From positions 6,283,501-6,347,500 of the forward strand of contig NZ_CP091716.1 of the NCBI RefSeq assembly GCF_022009635.1: a DNA stretch of 64,000 bases, read 5' to 3'. Below are positions 9,283-21,988 of the stretch, piece after piece. Origin of the DNA: Variovorax paradoxus. Its GTDB lineage: Bacteria; Pseudomonadota; Gammaproteobacteria; Burkholderiales; Burkholderiaceae_C. Numbering within the stretch: position 1 is the stretch's first letter; the number at the start of each line of letters is the position of its first letter. The notes beneath the pieces are model-generated. The model searched no databases. It saw nothing but the letters and a program-made list of their open reading frames with translations, and was not told where the DNA came from. A program made the position numbers and the translations under genes.

Positions 9283-10479
9283 TCAGCGGGCGAGCAGGTG
9301 GCTGGCGACGATGTTGCGCTGCACCTCGTTGGAGCCGGCATAGATGGAAGCGGCGCGGTCGTTGAGGTAGGCCGACATCGAGAACACGGCCTCTTCCGGA
9401 ATCGGCAGTTCGCCTCCGAGGCCGTCGTCCAGCGGCAGGCTGGCGGCGGCGTAGTGGCCTGCGATCTCCACGCCCAGCTCGGTCAGCCGCTGGCGCAGCT
9501 CGGAGCCGAGCACCTTGCCCATCGACGGGCGAATGCCGTGCGGCTCGCCGCGTGCCTGCGCGCGCAGCGACTGCAGCTCGGTGGCTTCGAGGGCGTCGAT
9601 GGCGCAATCCATTTCGGCCAGGCGCAGGGCCATGTCGCCGGCTTCGTCATGGTTGCGGGTGCCTGCCGCGAACGCCGCATCGGCCGCAGCGCCCAGGCGG
9701 CGCAGGCGCGCGCGCAGCATCGGCGCCCATGCGCCGCCGCGCTCGTGCTGCAGCAGGTACTTGGCGATGGTCCAGCCCTGGTTTTCCTCGCCGATCAGCC
9801 CTTCGGCCGGCACGCGCACGTCGTCGAAGAACACCTGGTTGAGCTCGTGGTCGCCCGAGATGCTGATGATCGGCCGGATGGTGATGCCCGGCGTCGGAAT
9901 GTCGAAGCACAGGAAGCTGATGCCCTGCTGCGGCTTTCCGCCCGAGGCGGTGCGCACTAGGCAGAACATGCGGTTGGCGTACTGCGCGTGCGTGGTCCAG
10001 ATCTTGGTGCCGTTGATGACGTAGTCGTTGCCGTCGCGCACAGCTTTGCATTGCAGCGAAGCCAGGTCGGAGCCCGATTGCGGCTCGGAGTAGCCCTGGC
10101 ACCAGTAGTCCTCGCCCGAGCGGATGCCGGGCAGCCATGCGCGCTTCTGCGCCTCGGTGCCGAAGGCGATGATCACCGGCGCGACCATGCCGGGGCCCAT
10201 GGGCGCGCGCGGCGGTGCGTCGGCCGCCGCCAGCTCGCTCGCGAACAGGTAGTGCTGCATCGGCGTCCAGCCGGTGCCGCCGTGCTCCACGGGCCAGTGC
10301 GGCACGCTCCAGCCGCGCGCCGCGAGGATGCGGTGCCAGCGGTTGCCGTATTCGTAGTCGCTGAAGATGCCGCTGCAGCGGCGGCCCGCCGCGCGCAGCT
10401 CGGGCGTCAGCTCGCGCGCGAGGAAGTCGCGCACCTCGTCTCGGAATGCGGTCTCCGCCGCGCTGAGGGTCCAGGCCAT
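9283..10479 (-). CDS. Acyl-CoA dehydrogenase, PimC-like large subunit
   Basis: A 398-residue acyl-CoA dehydrogenase, the first gene of the five-gene operon. The flavin/substrate segment GYSEPQSGSDLASL is at about 129-142, then INGTKIWTTHAQYA, and the C-terminus carries SIYAGSNEVQRNIV. Glu246 in LLQHERGGAW is at the helix-G position that acts as base in IVD/LCAD-type enzymes. The start MAWTLSAAET at 10479 is chosen because it begins the conserved N-terminal domain; a longer frame adds only non-conserved residues. It is followed after 10 bases by the small-subunit-like gene. Together they resemble PimC/PimD or the mycobacterial sterol side-chain pairs. Confidence 0.9.
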   Translation of the reverse strand: MAWTLSAAETAFRDEVRDFLARELTPELRAAGRRCSGIFSDYEYGNRWHRILAARGWSVPHWPVEHGGTGWTPMQHYLFASELAAADAPPRAPMGPGMVAPVIIAFGTEAQKRAWLPGIRSGEDYWCQGYSEPQSGSDLASLQCKAVRDGNDYVINGTKIWTTHAQYANRMFCLVRTASGGKPQQGISFLCFDIPTPGITIRPIISISGDHELNQVFFDDVRVPAEGLIGEENQGWTIAKYLLQHERGGAWAPMLRARLRRLGAAADAAFAAGTRNHDEAGDMALRLAEMDCAIDALEATELQSLRAQARGEPHGIRPSMGKVLGSELRQRLTELGVEIAGHYAAASLPLDDGLGGELPIPEEAVFSMSAYLNDRAASIYAGSNEVQRNIVASHLLAR

Positions 10480-10532
10480 GGTGTCGTCCCGTTGGAATGC
10501 ACCACGCAGTGTGCGCCCGGAATGGCCGGGCG

Positions 10533-14361: not shown

Positions 14362-15426
14362 TCAGGCTCCGAAGAGGTCGGGAACGTCGCCGCGGCCCGA
14401 CGGGGGTGCCACGCCAAGGTGGCGGTAGGCCGCCAGCGTGGCGATGCGCCCGCGCGGCGTGCGCTGCAAATAGCCCTGCTGGATGAGATAGGGCTCGATC
14501 ACGTCCTCGATGGTGTCGCGCTCCTCGCCGATGCTGGCCGCCACGTTGTCCAGCCCGACCGGACCGCCGTCGAAGCGGTGGATCACGGCCTCCAGCAGCT
14601 TGCGGTCCATCAGGTCGAAGCCCTGCGGATCGACGTCGAGCATGGCCAGCGCCTTGTGCGCGATGTCTTCGGTGATGCGGCCGTTGCCCTTGACCTCGGC
14701 ATAGTCGCGCACGCGGCGCAGCAGGCGGTTGGCGATGCGGGGCGTGCCGCGCGAGCGACGGGCGATCTCGAAGCCGCCGGCGGCGTCGGTCTCCACCTTG
14801 AGCAGGCCGGCGCTGCGGCGCACGATGAGCGCCAGTTCCTCGGGCGTGTAGAACTCCAGCCGCGCCACGATGCCGAAGCGGTCGCGCAGCGGGTTGGTCA
14901 GCATGCCGGCGCGGGTGGTGGCGCCCACCAGCGTGAAGGGCTGCAGGTCGAGCTTGATGCTGCGCGCCGCGGGGCCTTCGCCGATCATGATGTCGATCTG
15001 GTAGTCCTCCAGCGCGGGGTACAGGATTTCCTCGACGACCGGGCTCAGGCGGTGGATCTCGTCGATGAAGAGCACGTCGTTCGGCTCCAGGTTGGTCAGG
15101 AGCGCCGCCAGGTCCTTGGGCTTCTCGAGCACGGGGCCGGAGGTCTGGCGCAGGTTCACGCCCAGTTCGGCCGCGATGATGTGCGACAGCGTGGTCTTGC
15201 CCAGGCCGGGCGGGCCGAACAGCAGCACGTGGTCGAGCGCCTCTTTGCGCTTGCGCGCGGCGCCGATGAAGATCTCGAGCTGCTCGCGCACCTTGGCCTG
15301 GCCGACGTACTCGTCCAGCAGCTTGGGTCGCAAGGCCCGCTCTATCGCCTCTTCGTTGGGCGAAGCAGGTGCCGCGGACACCACGCGTTGGGGAACGGGC
15401 GCGAAATCGTCTGTCTGGATAGTCAT
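14362..15426 (-). CDS. ruvB: Holliday junction branch migration ATPase RuvB
   Basis: A 354-residue hexameric AAA+ motor that drives branch migration with RuvA. Walker A is [12 protein letters not shown], Walker B is [10 protein letters not shown], sensor 1 is [11 protein letters not shown], and the arginine-finger region is [12 protein letters not shown]. The C-terminal winged-helix domain ends in [13 protein letters not shown]. Length matches the family. The start at 15426 (MTIQTDDF) is preferred over a longer open frame that is not conserved. ruvA is about 18 kb away at 33.1 kb; no ruvC is seen in the window. Confidence 0.97.
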
Positions 15427-15511
15427 GAGAGAGGGTTTTTCGCCTACGAGTTTAGTACCTGCACACTGGCAGAATGCTCCGGCCACATAACGAACGAGGG
15501 GAAGCCAGCAC

Positions 15512-16135
15512 GTGTCGATCTACGAACTGAAGCCGCGTTTCCAGGCCCTGCTGCGGCCGCTGGTGGTCCGCCTGCATGCGATGGGCGTCACCGCCAACCA
15601 GGTCACGCTGGCGGCATGTGTCGTGTCGGTGGTGCTCGGGCTCTGGCTCTTCTTCGCCGCGCCCTCGCTGGCCGCCTTCGGGCTCATTCCGCTGTGGATG
15701 TTCCTGCGCATGGCCTTCAATGCCATCGACGGCATGCTGGCACGCGAGCACAACCAGCAGAGCAAGCTGGGCGCCTTCCTCAACGAACTGACCGACGTGG
15801 TGTCCGACGCCGCGCTCTACCTGCCCTTCGCGCTGGTGGCGCCCTTCAGCGGCTTCTGGGTCGGCACGGTGATCGTGCTGGCAGGCCTGAGCGAATTCGC
15901 CGGCGCGCTCGGTCCCACGGTGGGCGCCTCGCGCCGCTACGACGGCCCGCTGGGCAAGAGCGACCGGGCCTTCGTGTTCGGCGCGCTCGGCCTCTACGTG
16001 GCGCTGGGCTGGCCGCTGCCGGGCTGGACGGCATGGCTGATGCCGCTGCTGGCGGCATTGGTGGCCTGGACTACCGCCAACCGCATCCGCCGCGCGCTGG
16101 CCGAGGCCGAGGCAGGCATCCCCGCCCGCCACTGA
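15512..16135 (+). CDS. ynbA: CDP-alcohol phosphatidyltransferase, YnbA-like
   Basis: A 207-residue membrane enzyme of the CDP-alcohol phosphatidyltransferase family, which moves a phosphatidyl group from a CDP-lipid to an alcohol. The family motif D-x2-DG-x2-AR-x8-G-x3-D-x3-D appears as [18 protein letters not shown] followed by AFLNELTD: the first and third Asp are both replaced by Asn. The same pattern is, from memory, found in E. coli YnbA, to which the N-terminus ([18 protein letters not shown]) is also similar. The start is GTG at 15512 with AGGGG upstream. It is the first gene of a closely packed lipid operon. Substrate and product are unknown. Confidence 0.85.
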
Positions 16136-16162
16136 CATAAAACAAAGACTCACAGGGATTCA

Positions 16163-17929
16163 ATGACCGACATCACGCAACGCGTTCCGCACGAACACCA
16201 TTTCCAGACGCACGACGGCGAATCGCTGTTCTACCGCCACTGGCCCGCCACCGGCGGCGCACGGCGCGGCGCCATCCTGCTGTTCCACCGCGGCCACGAG
16301 CACGGCGCGCGCATGGCGCACCTGGTCGACGAACTGGACCTGCCCGACTTCGACTTCTTCGCCTGGGACGCGCGCGGCCACGGCCGCTCTCCGGGCCAGC
16401 GCGGCTACAGCCCCAGCTTCGGCACCTCGGTGCGCGACGTGCAGACCTTCGTGCAGCACATCGGCGCCGCGCACGGCGTGCCCGAACAAGACATCCACGT
16501 GGTCGCGCAGAGCGTGGGCGCGGTGCTGATCGCCACCTGGGCGCACGACTACGCGCCCAAGGTGCGCGGCCTCACGCTCGCCTCGCCGGCCTTCAAGGTC
16601 AAGCTCTACGTGCCCTTCGCGCGGCCCGGCCTCGCGCTGATGCACAAGCTGCGCGGGCTGTTCTTCGTCAACAGCTACGTGAAGGCCAAGTTCCTCACGC
16701 ACGACCCCGAGCGCATCGCCAGCTACGAGAGCGATCCGCTCATCAGCCGGCCCATCGCCGTGAACATCCTGCTCGGCCTGTACGAGGCGGCCGACCGCGT
16801 GGTGGCCGACGCCAACGCGATCACGCTGCCGGTGCAGCTGCTCATCTCGGGCGCCGACTGGGTGGTGCACCACAAGCCGCAGCACCGGTTCTTCGACCGG
16901 CTGGGCAGCGCGGTGAAGACCAAGACCGAACTGCCGGGCTTCTTCCACGACACGCTGGGCGAGAAAGACCGCGCGCCGGCCGTGGCGCAGATCCGCGAAT
17001 TCATCCTGCAGCGCTTCGACGAGCCGGCCGTGCCGGTGGACCGCCGCGAGGCGCACCTGAGCGGCGACACGGCCGACGAGTCGCGCGCGCTGGCCGAGCC
17101 GCTCTCTCCCCTGTCGCCGCGCGGCGCCTACTGGGCCATGACCCGCGCCGGGCTGAAGCTGGGCGGCAAGATGTCCGAGGGCATCAAGCTGGGTCACGAC
17201 ACCGGCTTCGACTCCGGCAGCACGCTCGACTACGTGTACCGCAACCAGCCCAGGGGCAGCTCGTTCATCGGCCGCTCGATCGACAAGACCTACCTGGAGT
17301 CGATCGGCTGGCGCGGCATCCGCCAGCGCAAGATCCACGTCGAGGAGCTACTTCGCATCGCGATGGAGCGGCTGGCCGAGATGCACCGCGAGGTGCGCGT
17401 GATGGACATCGCCGCCGGCCACGGCCGCTACGTGCTCGACGCGGTGCTGGCGAGCCCGGTCAAGGCCAGCTCGATCCTGCTGCGCGACTACAGCGACATC
17501 AACGTGCGCGACGGCCGCGCGCTCATCGCCGAGAAGGGCCTGGAAGATGTCGCGCAGTTCGTGCAGGCCGACGCCTTCGACCGCATGAGCCTCGCCAGCG
17601 TCACGCCGCGGCCCACGCTGGCGGTGGTGTCGGGCCTGTACGAGCTCTTCCCCGACAACGAGATGGTGCGCCGCTCGCTCGCGGGCGTGGGCGACGCGGT
17701 GGAAGACCGCGGCTACCTGGTCTACACCGGCCAACCCTGGCATCCGCAGCTCGAGATGATCGCGCGCGCTCTCACCAGCCACCGCCAGGGCGAGGCCTGG
17801 GTGATGCGCCGCCGCACCCAGTTCGAGATGGACCAGTTGGTGGAGGAAGCGGGCTTTCGCAAGATCGACCAGCGGGTCGACGAGTGGGGCATCTTCACGG
17901 TGTCGCTGGCGGTGCGCACCGAGCGATGA
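16163..17929 (+). CDS. ynbC: Alpha/beta hydrolase-methyltransferase fusion, YnbC-like
   Basis: A 588-residue two-domain protein. Residues about 1-285 are a lysophospholipase-type alpha/beta hydrolase: WDARGHGRSPG, nucleophile Ser117 in VVAQSVGAV (first Gly of GxSxG replaced by Ala), an acid in LLISGADWVVHH and His in FFHDTLGE. Residues about 340-585 form a Rossmann-like methyltransferase with SAM motif I VMDIAAGHGRYVLDA at about 412. Length and order match E. coli YnbC. The stop overlaps the next start by four bases (ATGA). A combined acyl-ester hydrolase and methyltransferase acting on a lipid made by this operon is inferred; no substrate is known. Confidence 0.85.
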   Translation: MTDITQRVPHEHHFQTHDGESLFYRHWPATGGARRGAILLFHRGHEHGARMAHLVDELDLPDFDFFAWDARGHGRSPGQRGYSPSFGTSVRDVQTFVQHIGAAHGVPEQDIHVVAQSVGAVLIATWAHDYAPKVRGLTLASPAFKVKLYVPFARPGLALMHKLRGLFFVNSYVKAKFLTHDPERIASYESDPLISRPIAVNILLGLYEAADRVVADANAITLPVQLLISGADWVVHHKPQHRFFDRLGSAVKTKTELPGFFHDTLGEKDRAPAVAQIREFILQRFDEPAVPVDRREAHLSGDTADESRALAEPLSPLSPRGAYWAMTRAGLKLGGKMSEGIKLGHDTGFDSGSTLDYVYRNQPRGSSFIGRSIDKTYLESIGWRGIRQRKIHVEELLRIAMERLAEMHREVRVMDIAAGHGRYVLDAVLASPVKASSILLRDYSDINVRDGRALIAEKGLEDVAQFVQADAFDRMSLASVTPRPTLAVVSGLYELFPDNEMVRRSLAGVGDAVEDRGYLVYTGQPWHPQLEMIARALTSHRQGEAWVMRRRTQFEMDQLVEEAGFRKIDQRVDEWGIFTVSLAVRTER

Positions 17930-19275
17930 GCGCCCGGCTGGCACGACGGCCCTGGAAGCGCGCCGCCGCATGGCTGGTCTTCCTCGGGCCGTTGTTCTAT
18001 GCGACCTACGGCTTCGCCAACTGGTGGGCCACCACGCGGGCCCACGTGCCGTCGATGGCCTTCGACTGGGAGCGGCAGATACCGTTCTGGCCGTGGACGA
18101 TCTTCCCGTACTGGACGATCAACGCCTTCTACGCGCTGTCGCTCTTCCTCGCGCGCGGCAAGCACACGCTCGACCGGCATGCGCTGCGGCTGGTGACGGC
18201 CACGCTGGTCGCCTGCACCTGCTTCATCCTCTGGCCGCTCCACTTCAGCTTCGGGCAGCCGCCGGTCGATGGCGCTCCGGCCTTCCTCTTCAACGCGCTG
18301 CGCGGCTTCGACCAGCCCTTCAACCAGGCGCCGTCGCTGCATATCGCGCTGGCGGTGATCCTGTGGGACTGGTATCGGCAGTTCATCCGTCCGCTGTGGG
18401 CGCGGCTGGTGCTGCATGCGTGGGCCTTCGCCATCTGCGCGTCGGTGCTGACGACATGGCAGCACCACTTCATCGACATCCCGACCGGCGCGCTGCTCGG
18501 CCTGTTCTGCGTTTGGCTGTGGCCGCTGGAGCGCAAGGTGTCGATGCCGCGCGCATGGCGCTGTACGCGCGATCCGCAGCGCTGGAAGCTGGCGGGCTTC
18601 TACGCCGTGGGCGCGGCGCTGTTCCTGGCGGCCGCGCTCCACGGCGGCGGCATCGCGCTGTGGCTGGCGTGGCCGGCCGCGTCGCTCGCGCTGGTGGCGC
18701 TCAACTACGCGGGTTTCGGCGCGCGCGGCTTCCAGATGAACGCGCATGGCCGCATGGGCTGGGCCGCGCGCTGGCTGTTCGCGCCCTATCGCCTGGGCGC
18801 CGCCCTCAACGCCTGGCTCTGGACGCGCAAGCTGCCGGCGTCGGTCGAGGTGGTGCCCGGCCTGCGGCTCGGCCGCCGGCCGACGCACGCCGAATGGCTG
18901 GCCGCCGGCAAGCCCCGGTTGGTGAGCCTGTGCGCCGAGCTGCAATTGCCGCCCGGCGTGCCGCATGCGCGCTGCGTGCCGCTGCTCGACCTGACGGTGC
19001 CGCCCACCGTTCGCCTGCGGCGCGCGGCGGCCGTCATCGAAGGCCAGCGCGGGAGCGCGGACGGTGCCACAGTGTGGGTCTGCTGCGCGCTCGGCTTCTC
19101 GCGCAGCGCGGCCGCGGTGATCGCCTGGCTGGGCCGCTACGGCCGGGCCGGCGGCATCGCCCGGGCCGAGGACACGGTGCGCCGGGCACGGCCGCAGATC
19201 GTGCTGCGGGACGCCTGGCGCATGTCGCTGGAGCCGCTCACGCCCTTGCAGGAGGTGCCGCCCCATGACCGATGA
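17926..19275 (+). CDS. ynbD: PAP2 phosphatase-dual-specificity phosphatase fusion, YnbD-like
   Basis: A 449-residue membrane protein with two phosphatase modules. The N-terminal half is a multi-pass PAP2-like domain with NQAPSLHIALAV (PSxH motif, about residue 135) and TWQHHFIDIPTGALLG (H-x3-D). The Ser-Arg usually before that His is not intact. The C-terminal 130 residues are a dual-specificity/tyrosine phosphatase fold with the loop CALGFSRS (C-x5-R-S, about residue 387). It matches the YnbD layout. PAP2 enzymes (PgpB) and a DSP enzyme (PTPMT1) both dephosphorylate phosphatidylglycerophosphate, so a lipid-phosphate substrate is plausible. The start at 17926 overlaps ynbC by four bases. Confidence 0.85.
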   Translation: MSARLARRPWKRAAAWLVFLGPLFYATYGFANWWATTRAHVPSMAFDWERQIPFWPWTIFPYWTINAFYALSLFLARGKHTLDRHALRLVTATLVACTCFILWPLHFSFGQPPVDGAPAFLFNALRGFDQPFNQAPSLHIALAVILWDWYRQFIRPLWARLVLHAWAFAICASVLTTWQHHFIDIPTGALLGLFCVWLWPLERKVSMPRAWRCTRDPQRWKLAGFYAVGAALFLAAALHGGGIALWLAWPAASLALVALNYAGFGARGFQMNAHGRMGWAARWLFAPYRLGAALNAWLWTRKLPASVEVVPGLRLGRRPTHAEWLAAGKPRLVSLCAELQLPPGVPHARCVPLLDLTVPPTVRLRRAAAVIEGQRGSADGATVWVCCALGFSRSAAAVIAWLGRYGRAGGIARAEDTVRRARPQIVLRDAWRMSLEPLTPLQEVPPHDR

Positions 19276-19714
19276 CAACGACAGAACCACCTGCGCCGCG
19301 CTCGCGGCGCTGCTGCGCGCCATGACGGTGCTGGCCCTCTGGGGCTTCGCGCTCACCTGCATCTCGGCGCTGGTGCTGGCGCTCACGCTGCGTTCGCTCT
19401 CGACCACCTCGACCATGGGCTTCGGCGCGGTGGTGATCCTCGGCGCGCTGGAGCGCTACTTCGCGTTCCGGCTGCGCTTCGACGAGGCGCTGTTCGACGG
19501 CCTGGCGCGCAACACCGTCGCCTCGCTCGACGCGCTCGACCGCGCGCTCGCGTCCCTCGGACTGCGCGAGCCGCCGCCGTCCTCGCAGCACGCCGCCCGC
19601 CCGCTCGACGACCGCGTGGCCGGCACCCGCCAGCTCATGCAGCGCCATGCCATCGTGGTGGCCTGCCAGAGCGCCATGTTCCTCCTTGCCTTGATGACAC
19701 AGGACATCTCTTGA
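19265..19714 (+). CDS. Small membrane protein of the ynb-like operon
   Basis: A 149-residue protein that overlaps the upstream gene by 11 bases and the downstream gene by 4, so it is almost certainly co-translated. Two hydrophobic helices lie near residues 14-65 (MTVLALWGFALTCISALVLA; GFGAVVILGALERYF) and one near the C-terminus (HAIVVACQSAMFLLALM). The middle is soluble and Arg/Asp-rich. I do not recognise the family. The context suggests a membrane partner for the phosphatase or the acyltransferase. Confidence 0.75.
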   Translation: MTDDNDRTTCAALAALLRAMTVLALWGFALTCISALVLALTLRSLSTTSTMGFGAVVILGALERYFAFRLRFDEALFDGLARNTVASLDALDRALASLGLREPPPSSQHAARPLDDRVAGTRQLMQRHAIVVACQSAMFLLALMTQDIS

Positions 19715-20439
19715 CCGAAGCAGACGACAACAACAAGAACGACACGCCGCCGTCCGAAAGCACGGTGCTGCGGCGCGGGCTCGCCGTGGTGGCGGGCAAG
19801 CTCATCATCGGCGTGGCCGGCCTGCTGACCGGCGTGCGCGCCATCTGGTCGGGCACCAGCCCCAAGGCCGAGCAGACGCTGTACTTCGCCAACCACACCA
19901 GCCACGGCGACTTCGTGCTGCTCTGGGCGACGCTTCCGCCCGACCTTCGCGCGCTCACGCGGCCGGTGGCGGGGCAGGACTACTGGGAGGCCTCGAAGCT
20001 GCGCAACTTCATCGGCCGCGACGTGTTCAACGCGCTCATGATCCGGCGCGACGGCTCAGGCCAGGGCGGCAACCCGGTCGACCAGATGAAGAAGGCGCTG
20101 GAAGGCGGCGACTCGCTCATCATGTTCCCCGAAGGCACGCGCAACACCGGCGACGAGATCCTGCTGCCGCTCAAGAGCGGCCTCTTCCACCTGGCGCGCG
20201 CCTGCCCCAACGTGCGGCTGGTGCCGGTGTGGATCGAGAACCTGAAGCGCGTGCTGCCCAAGGGCGTGCTGCTGCCGATTCCGCTGGCCTGCACGGTGCG
20301 CTTCGGCACGCCCATCACGCTGGGCGAAGGCGAGGACAAGGTGTCGTTCCTGGCGCGGGCGCGCGCCGCCATGCTCGACATGCGCCCCGAATACGACCGC
20401 GTGCCCGAACAAGAAAAAACGAAGACGACGACGCCATGA
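19711..20439 (+). CDS. PlsC-type 1-acyl-sn-glycerol-3-phosphate acyltransferase
   Basis: A 242-residue acyltransferase with the catalytic NHTSHGD motif (N-H-x4-D) near residue 60 and the substrate motif FPEGTRN near 139. It has one N-terminal membrane segment (VVAGKLIIGVAGLLTGVRAI). It would acylate a lysophospholipid or glycerol-3-phosphate derivative at the inner membrane. The start is TTG, overlapping the upstream stop as TTGA, with AGGA about 7 bases before it. It sits between the small membrane protein and the CdsA-like gene, so its product probably feeds the CDP-activation step. Confidence 0.9.
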   Translation: MTEADDNNKNDTPPSESTVLRRGLAVVAGKLIIGVAGLLTGVRAIWSGTSPKAEQTLYFANHTSHGDFVLLWATLPPDLRALTRPVAGQDYWEASKLRNFIGRDVFNALMIRRDGSGQGGNPVDQMKKALEGGDSLIMFPEGTRNTGDEILLPLKSGLFHLARACPNVRLVPVWIENLKRVLPKGVLLPIPLACTVRFGTPITLGEGEDKVSFLARARAAMLDMRPEYDRVPEQEKTKTTTP

Positions 20440-21389
20440 ACATCTCCGCTTCCACCCAGACCACGCTGGAGCTGTTCGGCGGCGTCGCGGGCGTGCTGAT
20501 CCTGGCCTCGGCCATCGGCGCGCTGCTCAAGTGGCGCGTGGCGCACGGCCAGCCCAACTCGGTGATCGACAACCTCAACGCCCGCGTCAACGCGTGGTGG
20601 GTGATGGTGGCGGTGATCGGCATCGCCTTCGCCTTCGGCAAGGGCGGCGTGATCGTGCTGTTCTACCTGATCTCGTTCTATGCGCTGCGCGAGTTCATCA
20701 GCCTGGCCTACACCCGGCGCGGCGACCACGGCGCCATCGCGCTGGCCTTCTACCTCGCGCTGCCGGGGCAGTACTTCCTGATCTGGATCGACTGGTACGG
20801 GCTCTACGCCATCTACATCCCGGTCTATGCCTTCCTGCTGCTGCCCATTCTGGCGGCGGTGGGCGGCGACACGCAGCGCTTCCTGGAGCGCACCTCGAAG
20901 ATCCAATGGGGCCTGATGGTGTGCGTGTTCTGCATCAGCCACGTGCCCGCGCTGCTGACGCTGCAGATCCCCGGCTTCGAGGGCCGCAACCTGCTGCTGA
21001 TCGCCTTCCTCGTGATCGTGGTGCAGGGCAGCGACGTGCTGCAGTACGTGTGGGGCAAGCTCTTCGGCAAGCGCAAGGTGGCGCCCGAGCTGTCGCCTTC
21101 CAAAACCTGGGAAGGCCTGGTCGGCGGCGTGGCGAGCGCCACCGCGCTGGGCGCGGCGCTGTACTGGGCCACGCCCTTCAACCCGTGGCAGGCGGCGCTG
21201 ATGGCGTTGACCATCTGCCTCATGGGCTTCTTCGGCGGCCTGGTGATGTCGGCCATCAAGCGCGACCGCGGCGTGAAGGACTGGGGTTCGATGATCGAAG
21301 GCCACGGCGGCATGCTCGACCGGCTCGACTCGGTGATCTTCGCGGCGCCCATCTACTTCCACGCGCTGCGCTACTGGTGGGTGCCGTGA
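20436..21389 (+). CDS. ynbB: CdsA-family phosphatidate cytidylyltransferase, YnbB-like
   Basis: A 317-residue polytopic membrane enzyme that makes a CDP-activated lipid from a phosphatidate-like substrate and CTP. The CdsA signature is complete near residues 270-297 (SAIKRDRGVKDWG, then SMIEGHGGMLDRLD), preceded by SPSKTWEGLVGG. The start ATG at 20436 overlaps the plsC stop (ATGA). As a second CdsA-type enzyme in a dedicated operon it corresponds to E. coli YnbB. It would provide the activated donor for the YnbA-like transferase encoded at the start of the operon. Confidence 0.9.
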   Translation: MNISASTQTTLELFGGVAGVLILASAIGALLKWRVAHGQPNSVIDNLNARVNAWWVMVAVIGIAFAFGKGGVIVLFYLISFYALREFISLAYTRRGDHGAIALAFYLALPGQYFLIWIDWYGLYAIYIPVYAFLLLPILAAVGGDTQRFLERTSKIQWGLMVCVFCISHVPALLTLQIPGFEGRNLLLIAFLVIVVQGSDVLQYVWGKLFGKRKVAPELSPSKTWEGLVGGVASATALGAALYWATPFNPWQAALMALTICLMGFFGGLVMSAIKRDRGVKDWGSMIEGHGGMLDRLDSVIFAAPIYFHALRYWWVP

Positions 21390-21988
21390 GCAAGGCGGCC
21401 AAAGACGCGGAGCGCGTCGCGCACGACATGCCCGTCGAGTGCGCCGACGCGGCCTCGTGGGCGCGCTGGCTCGAGCGCCACCATGGCAACGCCGCCGGCG
21501 TGTGGCTGCGCATCGCAAAAAAAGACAGCGGCATCGCCTCCATCGACCACCCGGCCGCGCTGGAAGAAGCGCTGTGCTGGGGCTGGATCGACGGCCAGCG
21601 CAAGAGCGACGACGCGCAATACTTCCTGCAGCGCTTCACGCCGCGCACCAAGCGCAGCACCTGGTCGCAGATCAACCGCGCCAAGGTGCTGAAGCTCATC
21701 GAGGAAGGCCGCATGCAGCCGGCCGGCCATGCCGAGATCGAACGCGCGAAGGCCGACGGCCGCTGGGACGCGGCCTACGAGGGCGTCGCCGCGGCCACCG
21801 TGCCGCCCGACCTGCAGGCCGCGCTGGACGCCAACAAGAAGGCCGCGAAGTTCTTCGCCACGCTCGACTCGCGCAACCGCTTCGCCGTGCTGTTCCGCAC
21901 CCAGGGCGCGAAGAAGCCCGAGACCCGCGCGCGCCGCATCGCGCAGTTCGTCGAGATGCTGGCCAAGGGCGAGAAGATCCACCCCTGA
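21386..21988 (+). CDS. YdeI/OmpD-associated family protein
   Basis: A 200-residue soluble protein of the YdeI family (annotated as bacteriocin-protection or OmpD-associated). Features seen are SWARWLERHHGNAAGVWLRI, EEALCWGWIDGQRKSDD, FTPRTKRSTWSQINRAKV and a C-terminal NRFAVLFRTQGAKKPETRAR region. The GTG at 21386 overlaps the ynbB-like stop (GTGA) and is preferred; an ATG at 21428 would give 186 residues. The biochemical role of the family is not established. It probably belongs to the lipid operon by translational coupling. Confidence 0.82.
   Translation: MSKAAKDAERVAHDMPVECADAASWARWLERHHGNAAGVWLRIAKKDSGIASIDHPAALEEALCWGWIDGQRKSDDAQYFLQRFTPRTKRSTWSQINRAKVLKLIEEGRMQPAGHAEIERAKADGRWDAAYEGVAAATVPPDLQAALDANKKAAKFFATLDSRNRFAVLFRTQGAKKPETRARRIAQFVEMLAKGEKIHP

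Follow-up and report, generated by a model that had tools for sequence, protein, structure and literature searches.

What is made by the six-gene, ynb-type operon on the + strand at positions 15512–21389 of a 64,000-nucleotide stretch of the Variovorax paradoxus genome (the window, meaning the whole stretch analysed), and what kind of enzyme is its YnbA? Judged from its sequence, the centre of the operon is a CDP-alcohol phosphotransferase (CDP-AP) homologue, YnbA, with an Asn/Asn/Arg active site, tied to its own CDP-diacylglycerol (CDP-DAG) synthase, YnbB, and to a PlsC-type acyltransferase. The explanation we prefer, held with somewhat less than even confidence, is that the operon makes a minor modified glycerophospholipid and that YnbA is an altered phosphatidyltransferase using a phosphorylated acceptor. 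A first-pass annotation had noticed the operon and guessed at its biochemistry; the observation is sound and the guess partly so. New relative to it are the Asn/Asn/Arg change in YnbA, the YnbA–YnbB–PlsC core, and the accessory status of the other three genes (C, D and X).

The CDP-AP signature is D1xxD2GxxAR...GxxxD3xxxD4, with four signature aspartates, and eight of its residues are called absolutely conserved in a passage of PMC4634129. YnbA departs from this classical form, since Asn occupies both the D1 and the D3 place, in the window protein as in the family rows. The gene and the residues concerned are:

15512..16135, + strand: YnbA-type CDP-alcohol phosphotransferase homologue (207 aa, GTG start; PF01066 at 40.5 bits, cut-off 22)
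15707..15709, + strand: Arg66, a new conserved Arg four residues before Asn70 (Arg in 120/120, 120/120 and 103/104 rows)
15719..15721, + strand: Asn70, at the D1 place (Asn in 223/223 rows with a residue there)
15728..15730, + strand: Asp73, the retained D2 (Asp in 223/223)
15782..15787, + strand: Asn91, at the D3 place, and Glu92, a new adjoining acid (Asn and Glu each 223/224)
15794..15796, + strand: Asp95, the retained D4, catalytic base in relatives (224/224)
15965..15967, + strand: Arg152, counterpart of the PIP-synthase acceptor-phosphate Arg (222/222 covered rows)
16082..16084, + strand: Arg191, counterpart of MtPIPS R195 and RsPIPS R191 (222/222 covered rows; aligns with R195)

These counts refer to 120 listed proteins of subfamily 1, 120 listed proteins of a second subfamily described below, and 104 fetched rows, with subfamily 1 and the fetched rows together giving 224 (221 distinct, the window being present twice). 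Each list of 120 holds the best by similarity from 7999 candidates, and the rows are not independent. The complete pattern (Asn/Asn, Arg at D1-4, acid at D3+1) is present in 120/120, 120/120 and 103/104 rows of the three sets and in 0/42 other CDP-alcohol phosphotransferases; the sole odd row of the 224, L006, comes from an ORF in which the motif is out of frame. Asp is found at both D1 and D3 in all controls (32/32 PgsA/PssA and 10/10 other divergent CDP-APs), and the D1-4 position is Ala or Phe in 32/32 PgsA/PssA, as opposed to Arg in YnbA. Position 92 is Glu or Asp in 120/120 of subfamily 2. The motif P(D/N)xx(T/S) of the first transmembrane segment has Asn29 and Thr32 (each in 222/223 rows) with Ala in place of Pro, and in the alignment the nucleotide-binding end of YnbA looks intact. 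Selection on the gene is purifying (dN/dS 0.19–0.30 in four comparisons), so it is not a decaying gene, although catalysis is not thereby demonstrated. No Asn variant of the signature is reported among the matches listed in the open-licence literature.

YnbA is homologous to PF01066 and is predicted to have the CDP-AP fold, specifically that of phosphatidylinositol-phosphate (PIP) synthases. By both profile model and fold it is closer to PIP than to phosphatidylglycerophosphate (PGP) synthases, and it falls below the cut-offs of the NCBIfam PIPS and AIPS equivalog models (51 of 170 and 73.3 of 180 bits) and of TIGR00560 (PGP synthase, PgsA; 26.7 of 109.1 bits). It differs from the PIP synthases RsPIPS (5d91/5d92) and MtPgsA1 (6h53/6h59) by Asn at D1 and D3, Arg at D1-4 and Glu at D3+1. 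The two acceptor-phosphate arginines of PIP and archaetidylinositol-phosphate (AIP) synthases are present as R152 and R191, the former equivalent to MtPIPS R155 only after a one-residue shift of the printed hidden Markov model alignment. A passage of PMC4634129 proposes that R153 and R191 of RsPIPS bind the acceptor phosphate, and because R152 and R191 match these arginines, the acceptor of YnbA is by analogy probably phosphorylated. Myo-inositol phosphate made by the cell was considered as that acceptor and is unsupported, as inositol-1-phosphate synthase (PF01658) has 0 matches in the host genome (7.95 Mb, 2 contigs); 6/14 control genomes are positive, E. coli not among them, and inositol uptake was not examined. 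Three further CDP-AP proteins are encoded in the host genome, all with canonical signatures.

The altered site recurs in a distant branch. Two weak matches to the YnbA profile (L116 and L117) are remote relatives sharing the Asn, Arg and acid of YnbA, in which Ile or Val replaces the Arg of the AR signature; this second subfamily (subfamily 2) is without that Arg. A database search from these two gave a best 120 from Vibrio, Photobacterium, Enterovibrio, Methylopila and others, all 120 of which have both Asn residues as well as the Arg at -4. In a tree whose sample did not include PIP and AIP synthases and from which the controls L213 and L214 dropped out, the two subfamilies are joined with support of 94/95 (just below the mark) and separated with 98/100. 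Among 299 genomes sampled evenly across the phylum, 31 match the YnbA profile, 29 of these at more than 150 bits. Asn/Asn YnbA is present in 46 of the 299, with subfamily 1 in 28 (the 29 strong matches minus genome G218; the copy in G107 is broken by a stop), subfamily 2 in 19 (in one as a fragment), and both in one.

YnbB and PlsC (B and P) accompany both subfamilies. YnbB matches of over 150 bits occur in 30/31 genomes with YnbA (A), and 29/31 also have a second, weaker CdsA-type match. At the subfamily-2 loci YnbB is no more than 1.6 kb from A in 19/19 and PlsC is present in 18/19, in four arrangements (A-B-P, A-P-B, P-B-A and divergent). At five loci (L109–L113) A, B and PlsC are present but C, D and X are missing. 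At two others (L118 and L119) A is oriented divergently from C-D-X, and neither B nor PlsC lies in the vicinity; the genome of L119 (G194) has a PlsC–YnbB pair elsewhere, and in that of L118 (G043) such a pair lies beside a second, distant YnbA (L190). Because loci keep A, B and PlsC alone, or part C-D-X from P and B, the set consists of two layers, a core of YnbA, YnbB and PlsC and an add-on of C, D and X. G043 carries both subfamilies, subfamily 1 with C-D-X and subfamily 2 with PlsC and YnbB. At three subfamily-2 loci (L194, L196 and L197) a membrane-type protein of ~130 aa, perhaps a counterpart of X, lies between YnbB and YnbA; that of L196 has no Pfam match.

The other five genes of the operon are:

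16163..17929, + strand: YnbC-type fusion of hydrolase and methyltransferase (PF12146 at 232 bits, PF12147 at 503 bits)
17926..19275, + strand: YnbD-type fusion of a PAP2-like membrane half and a C-terminal dual-specificity-phosphatase (DSP) half (Pfam, fold comparison)
19265..19714, + strand: X, a 149 aa membrane protein between D and PlsC (no Pfam family; aligned with 19 relatives)
19711..20439, + strand: PlsC-type acyltransferase (TTG start; PF01553 at 64.9 bits)
20436..21389, + strand: YnbB-type CDP-diacylglycerol synthase (PF01148 at 238 bits; 39% identical to E. coli YnbB)

All six open reading frames (ORFs) are closely packed on one strand, as first described, with a single gap of 27 nt between A and C and overlaps of 4 to 11 nt at the other four junctions (C-D, D-X, X-PlsC and PlsC-B). 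The overlaps suggest co-transcription of all six; a sigma-70 consensus scan of 15200–21700 found no promoter-like site. The sixth gene, X, encodes a membrane protein of no known family and is none of the five enzymes in the first-pass list.

In a one-genome-per-species scan 431 YnbC relatives were found, the closest being 96% identical and from Variovorax. The best 80 loci are mostly from Variovorax and other Comamonadaceae, with Rhodocyclales, Pseudomonas, a Chromatiaceae metagenome-assembled genome and a few others. The order A-C-D-X-P-B is kept in 71 of these 80; of the other nine, one is A-C-D-X-B-P, one is P-A-C-D with a weak B match, and in seven the contig stops short of P and B. As 71/80 keep the order and contig ends cut seven of the remainder, the six-gene set is conserved far beyond chance. 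Departures elsewhere include a locus with no D in the operon (L124) and one with A and C only (L125). On a Shinella plasmid (L164; NZ_CP015737.1, 620 kb, Rhizobiaceae) C-D-X-P-B has A divergent beside it, and since Shinella accounts for 13 of 31 plasmid records with a YnbA match, the set may be mobile.

The dedicated phospholipid-type pathway first envisaged gains support from co-occurrence among the 299 genomes. PF12147 (YnbC) is present in 22, all of which have YnbA, and full-length YnbD (>350 bits) in 21, all among those 22; it was not found without YnbC in the sample. In the other 18 genomes listed for YnbD about one half of the protein was matched, at no more than 127 bits.

All four E. 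coli K-12 orthologues are clustered as ynbABCD (NC_000913 1477621–1482201), with BLASTP identities of 38–58% (YnbA 47%, 4e-49; YnbC 58%; YnbD 38%, 3e-81; YnbB 39%, 8e-59), and E. coli YnbA has the same Arg66/Asn70/Asn91/Glu92 pattern as the window YnbA. The gene content thus matches, but the layout, first described as alike, does not, because the E. coli order is A-B-C-D, without PlsC and X in the operon, and that of the window is A-C-D-X-P-B.

YnbB has the PF01148 domain and the pattern KR-KD-HGG-DR-D, which we take to be the CDP-DAG synthase signature; K275, R276, K281, D282, H290–G292, D295, R296 and D298 are invariant in the covered rows of 91. It can be aligned with E. coli YnbB over its length with this signature intact, and differs in setting from E. 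coli YnbB and CdsA in adjoining PlsC and sitting with YnbA, C, D and X. PlsC contains NHxxxxD and FPEGTR, presumably its acyltransferase motifs. According to passages of the papers cited, E. coli YnbB makes CDP-DAG in vitro (PMC7018664) and cannot replace CdsA (PMC6362211). The function of ynbABCD, first given as not known to be described, has therefore been studied in part for YnbB; for the operon as a whole, neither a product nor a study of YnbA was found among the matches listed in the open-licence literature, of which PMC10134817, PMC13031359, PMC12871917 and PMC10652928 mention ynbA by name. A PF01148 check of three genomes did not bear out YnbB as the sole CDP-DAG synthase; G000 encodes a CdsA-type protein (176 bits), and in G218 the CdsA-type protein is the only one. 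In the third genome (G161; 2.0 Mb) the CdsA-type match is in two pieces (contig 1, 79322–80145) and YnbD lies ~42–45 kb from the operon.

A second YnbB-like protein adjoins a PlsC-type gene at ~1.557 Mb of the host genome (L129:8390–9379 and 9395–10528, both - strand). It has lost the synthase signature (KD to PN, GHGG to TGANG), and the same pair, with similar loss, adjoins a Transgly-family gene in a second genome of the family (L130). Among five added genomes without YnbA, three have a YnbB-like protein (240–262 bits), and the one of these that was aligned (G019) is of the degenerate type. This paralogue, kept beside a PlsC-type gene in the host genome and G019, is by its sequence possibly a dead CDP-DAG synthase that is retained.

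YnbC consists of a hydrolase (~13–281) resembling monoacylglycerol lipases (best E 3e-18), from which it differs in being fused to a PF12147 methyltransferase (277–585); S117, D232, H262, D415, G419 and G421 are invariant in 116 aligned rows. Both halves of YnbD score below Pfam cut-offs (DSPc E 4e-6, 27 of 33.5 bits; PAP2 E 1e-5, 25.5 of 27.2 bits), and P136, S137, H139, H180, H181, D184, C387 and R393 are invariant in the covering rows of 111. The C-terminal half shares the fold and C-x5-R loop of PTPMT1 and other DSPs, PTPMT1 being among the tied fold matches; all fold rows belong to the DSP half and none to the PAP2 half, the fusion to which distinguishes YnbD from PTPMT1. A passage of PMC7413402 reports that a strain without all four PAP2 proteins grows.

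Given the observed genes, homologies, predicted fold, conservation and co-occurrence, and the CDP-DAG synthesis reported for E. coli YnbB, we infer the other steps, their order, the topology, the acceptor and the product as follows. Synthesis would take place at the inner membrane, on its cytosolic face, where PlsC would complete phosphatidic acid and YnbB would activate it to CDP-DAG. YnbA would then move the phosphatidyl group onto a small phosphate-bearing acceptor (a polyol or sugar phosphate). In M. tuberculosis PgsA1, Mg-1 is held by D1, D2 and D3 and Mg-2 by D3 with D4 (a passage of PMC6506517); the D1 and D3 carboxylates that hold metal in relatives being Asn in YnbA, R66, one helix turn away, and E92 may take over part of their role, such that one metal or none would be needed at the diphosphate. 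YnbA is perhaps, on this sequence pattern, an Arg-assisted phosphatidyltransferase. Because YnbD has a DSP half and the acceptor is probably phosphorylated, that half, taken as cytosolic, would dephosphorylate the head group, much as happens in the PIP-to-PI and PGP-to-PG routes. Of the two halves of YnbC, the lipase-like one would trim an acyl chain and the other would act as a methyltransferase. A finishing module would be made up of C, D and X, and many genomes bear the core without it.

Several points weigh against this pathway. The replacement of metal or carboxylate by R66 and E92 is a guess, with the facing of the site deduced from helix spacing. Passages of PMC8633023 report for MjPSS that every motif change lowered or abolished activity and that Mg restored D62N (D3 to N) negligibly or not at all; as D3-to-N so badly hurts a relative, YnbA may have no transferase function. 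The same source has D41S (D1) and D62S (D3) partly restored by Mg, so changes at D1 and D3 do not necessarily require an Arg. In subfamily 2, where the alignment is uncertain, Arg191 is not clearly retained, and the lone YnbA relative of G218 (L114) lacks the D1 Asn, has neither B nor P in its neighbourhood and belongs to a genome without YnbB. A YnbB paralogue without its signature is retained, so conservation does not mean catalysis, and since core genomes exist without C and D, dephosphorylation by YnbD is not obligatory. A passage of PMC7018664 reports that deleting ynbB in E. coli causes no phospholipid defect, and no activity, lipid or solved structure for YnbA was found in the open-licence literature.

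The alternative that survives best, which we judge unlikely, is that YnbA is a non-catalytic descendant binding CDP-DAG or nucleotide and serving as a carrier, regulator or product sink for YnbB. It would account for the loss of D1 and D3, both used by MjPSS and MtPgsA1, and the signature-less YnbB beside PlsC in the host genome and a relative indicates that such copies can persist. However, the rest of the YnbA site is tightly conserved, R66 and E92 occur together in two deeply split subfamilies, and both the purifying selection and the invariant D4 base count against it.

Quite improbable in our estimation is a pyrophosphate-linked lipid, in which a sugar-1-phosphate, e.g. N-acetylglucosamine (GlcNAc)-1-P, would attack CDP-DAG to give sugar-PP-DAG, a first step to MPIase-like glycolipids. 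A site made less negative by two Asp-to-Asn changes plus an Arg would suit an anionic nucleophile that requires no deprotonation, but the catalytic-base Asp95 is fully kept. In passages of PMC6362211 and PMC7018664 YnbB overproduction raises MPIase and CdsA/YnbB are linked to GlcNAc-PP-DAG, although the authors attribute that step to CdsA/YnbB, MPIase does not change on deletion of ynbB (PMC6362211), and the word ynbA is absent from PMC6362211. Similarly, ynbB is one of five genes conditionally depleted in a transposon screen of cells making only phosphoglyceride-linked enterobacterial common antigen (ECA-PG), but is dispensable for ECA-PG synthesis, as given in a passage of PMC8609368.

A turnover or remodelling route, with YnbA hydrolysing or exchanging CDP-DAG, YnbC deacylating, YnbD dephosphorylating and PlsC and YnbB rebuilding, seems very improbable; lipase-like YnbC and two phosphatase-type domains fit breakdown as well as synthesis, but the core that occurs without C and D (PlsC, YnbB and YnbA) is synthetic, and a methyltransferase fits poorly into turnover. 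A second PGP-synthase/PGP-phosphatase route to phosphatidylglycerol, the analogy first drawn, shares the same broad enzyme families, with PTPMT1 among the tied DSP fold matches, and is hardly credible, being rejected as the principal explanation on the TIGR00560 score, the PIP-like model and fold of YnbA, the three canonical CDP-APs elsewhere in the genome, and the failure of E. coli YnbD to complement PGP-phosphatase strains (or undecaprenyl-pyrophosphate-phosphatase strains) in a passage of PMC7413402.

The operon is flanked by ruvB (opposite strand) on one side and by an OmdA/YdeI-family gene (21386–21988) on the other, whose start overlaps the ynbB stop by 4 nt. The latter follows the operon in 27 of loci L001–L128, all titled Variovorax, and was rejected as a seventh member because it is present in Variovorax loci only. 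Neighbouring genes were also considered as a clue to the head group; 40 proteins were scanned, two of which were YnbA and YnbB themselves (L117) and 38 lay near core loci or YnbB/YnbD copies (some of the ORFs, chosen solely for their length, are perhaps not genes), and they gave mixed families or nothing, with no repeated pattern. Lipid- or phosphatase-flavoured neighbours occurred once each, namely a HAD hydrolase (L189), a Polyketide_cyc2 lipid-transport family protein (L200) and, upstream of the subfamily-2 YnbA of L116 (9751–11826, - strand), a protein with a type VI secretion system Tle1-like phospholipase domain together with a DUF2931 protein.

A glycerophospholipid pathway with an altered YnbA at its centre thus remains our preferred explanation. 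The wider proposal is doubtful, namely that YnbA founds a CDP-AP clade, represented in E. coli K-12 and in 46 of the 299 genomes, in which an Arg stands in for a metal ion and which, with its own CDP-DAG synthase and acyltransferase, makes an undescribed class of phospholipid. E. coli K-12 carries a member of the clade with no described product among the open-licence literature matches, so the reading is testable there. If true, the replacement of two of the four aspartates and the gain of an Arg, with the coupling to a YnbB-type synthase and an acyltransferase kept, would change the view of metal chemistry in the CDP-APs and would indicate an unrecognised phospholipid.

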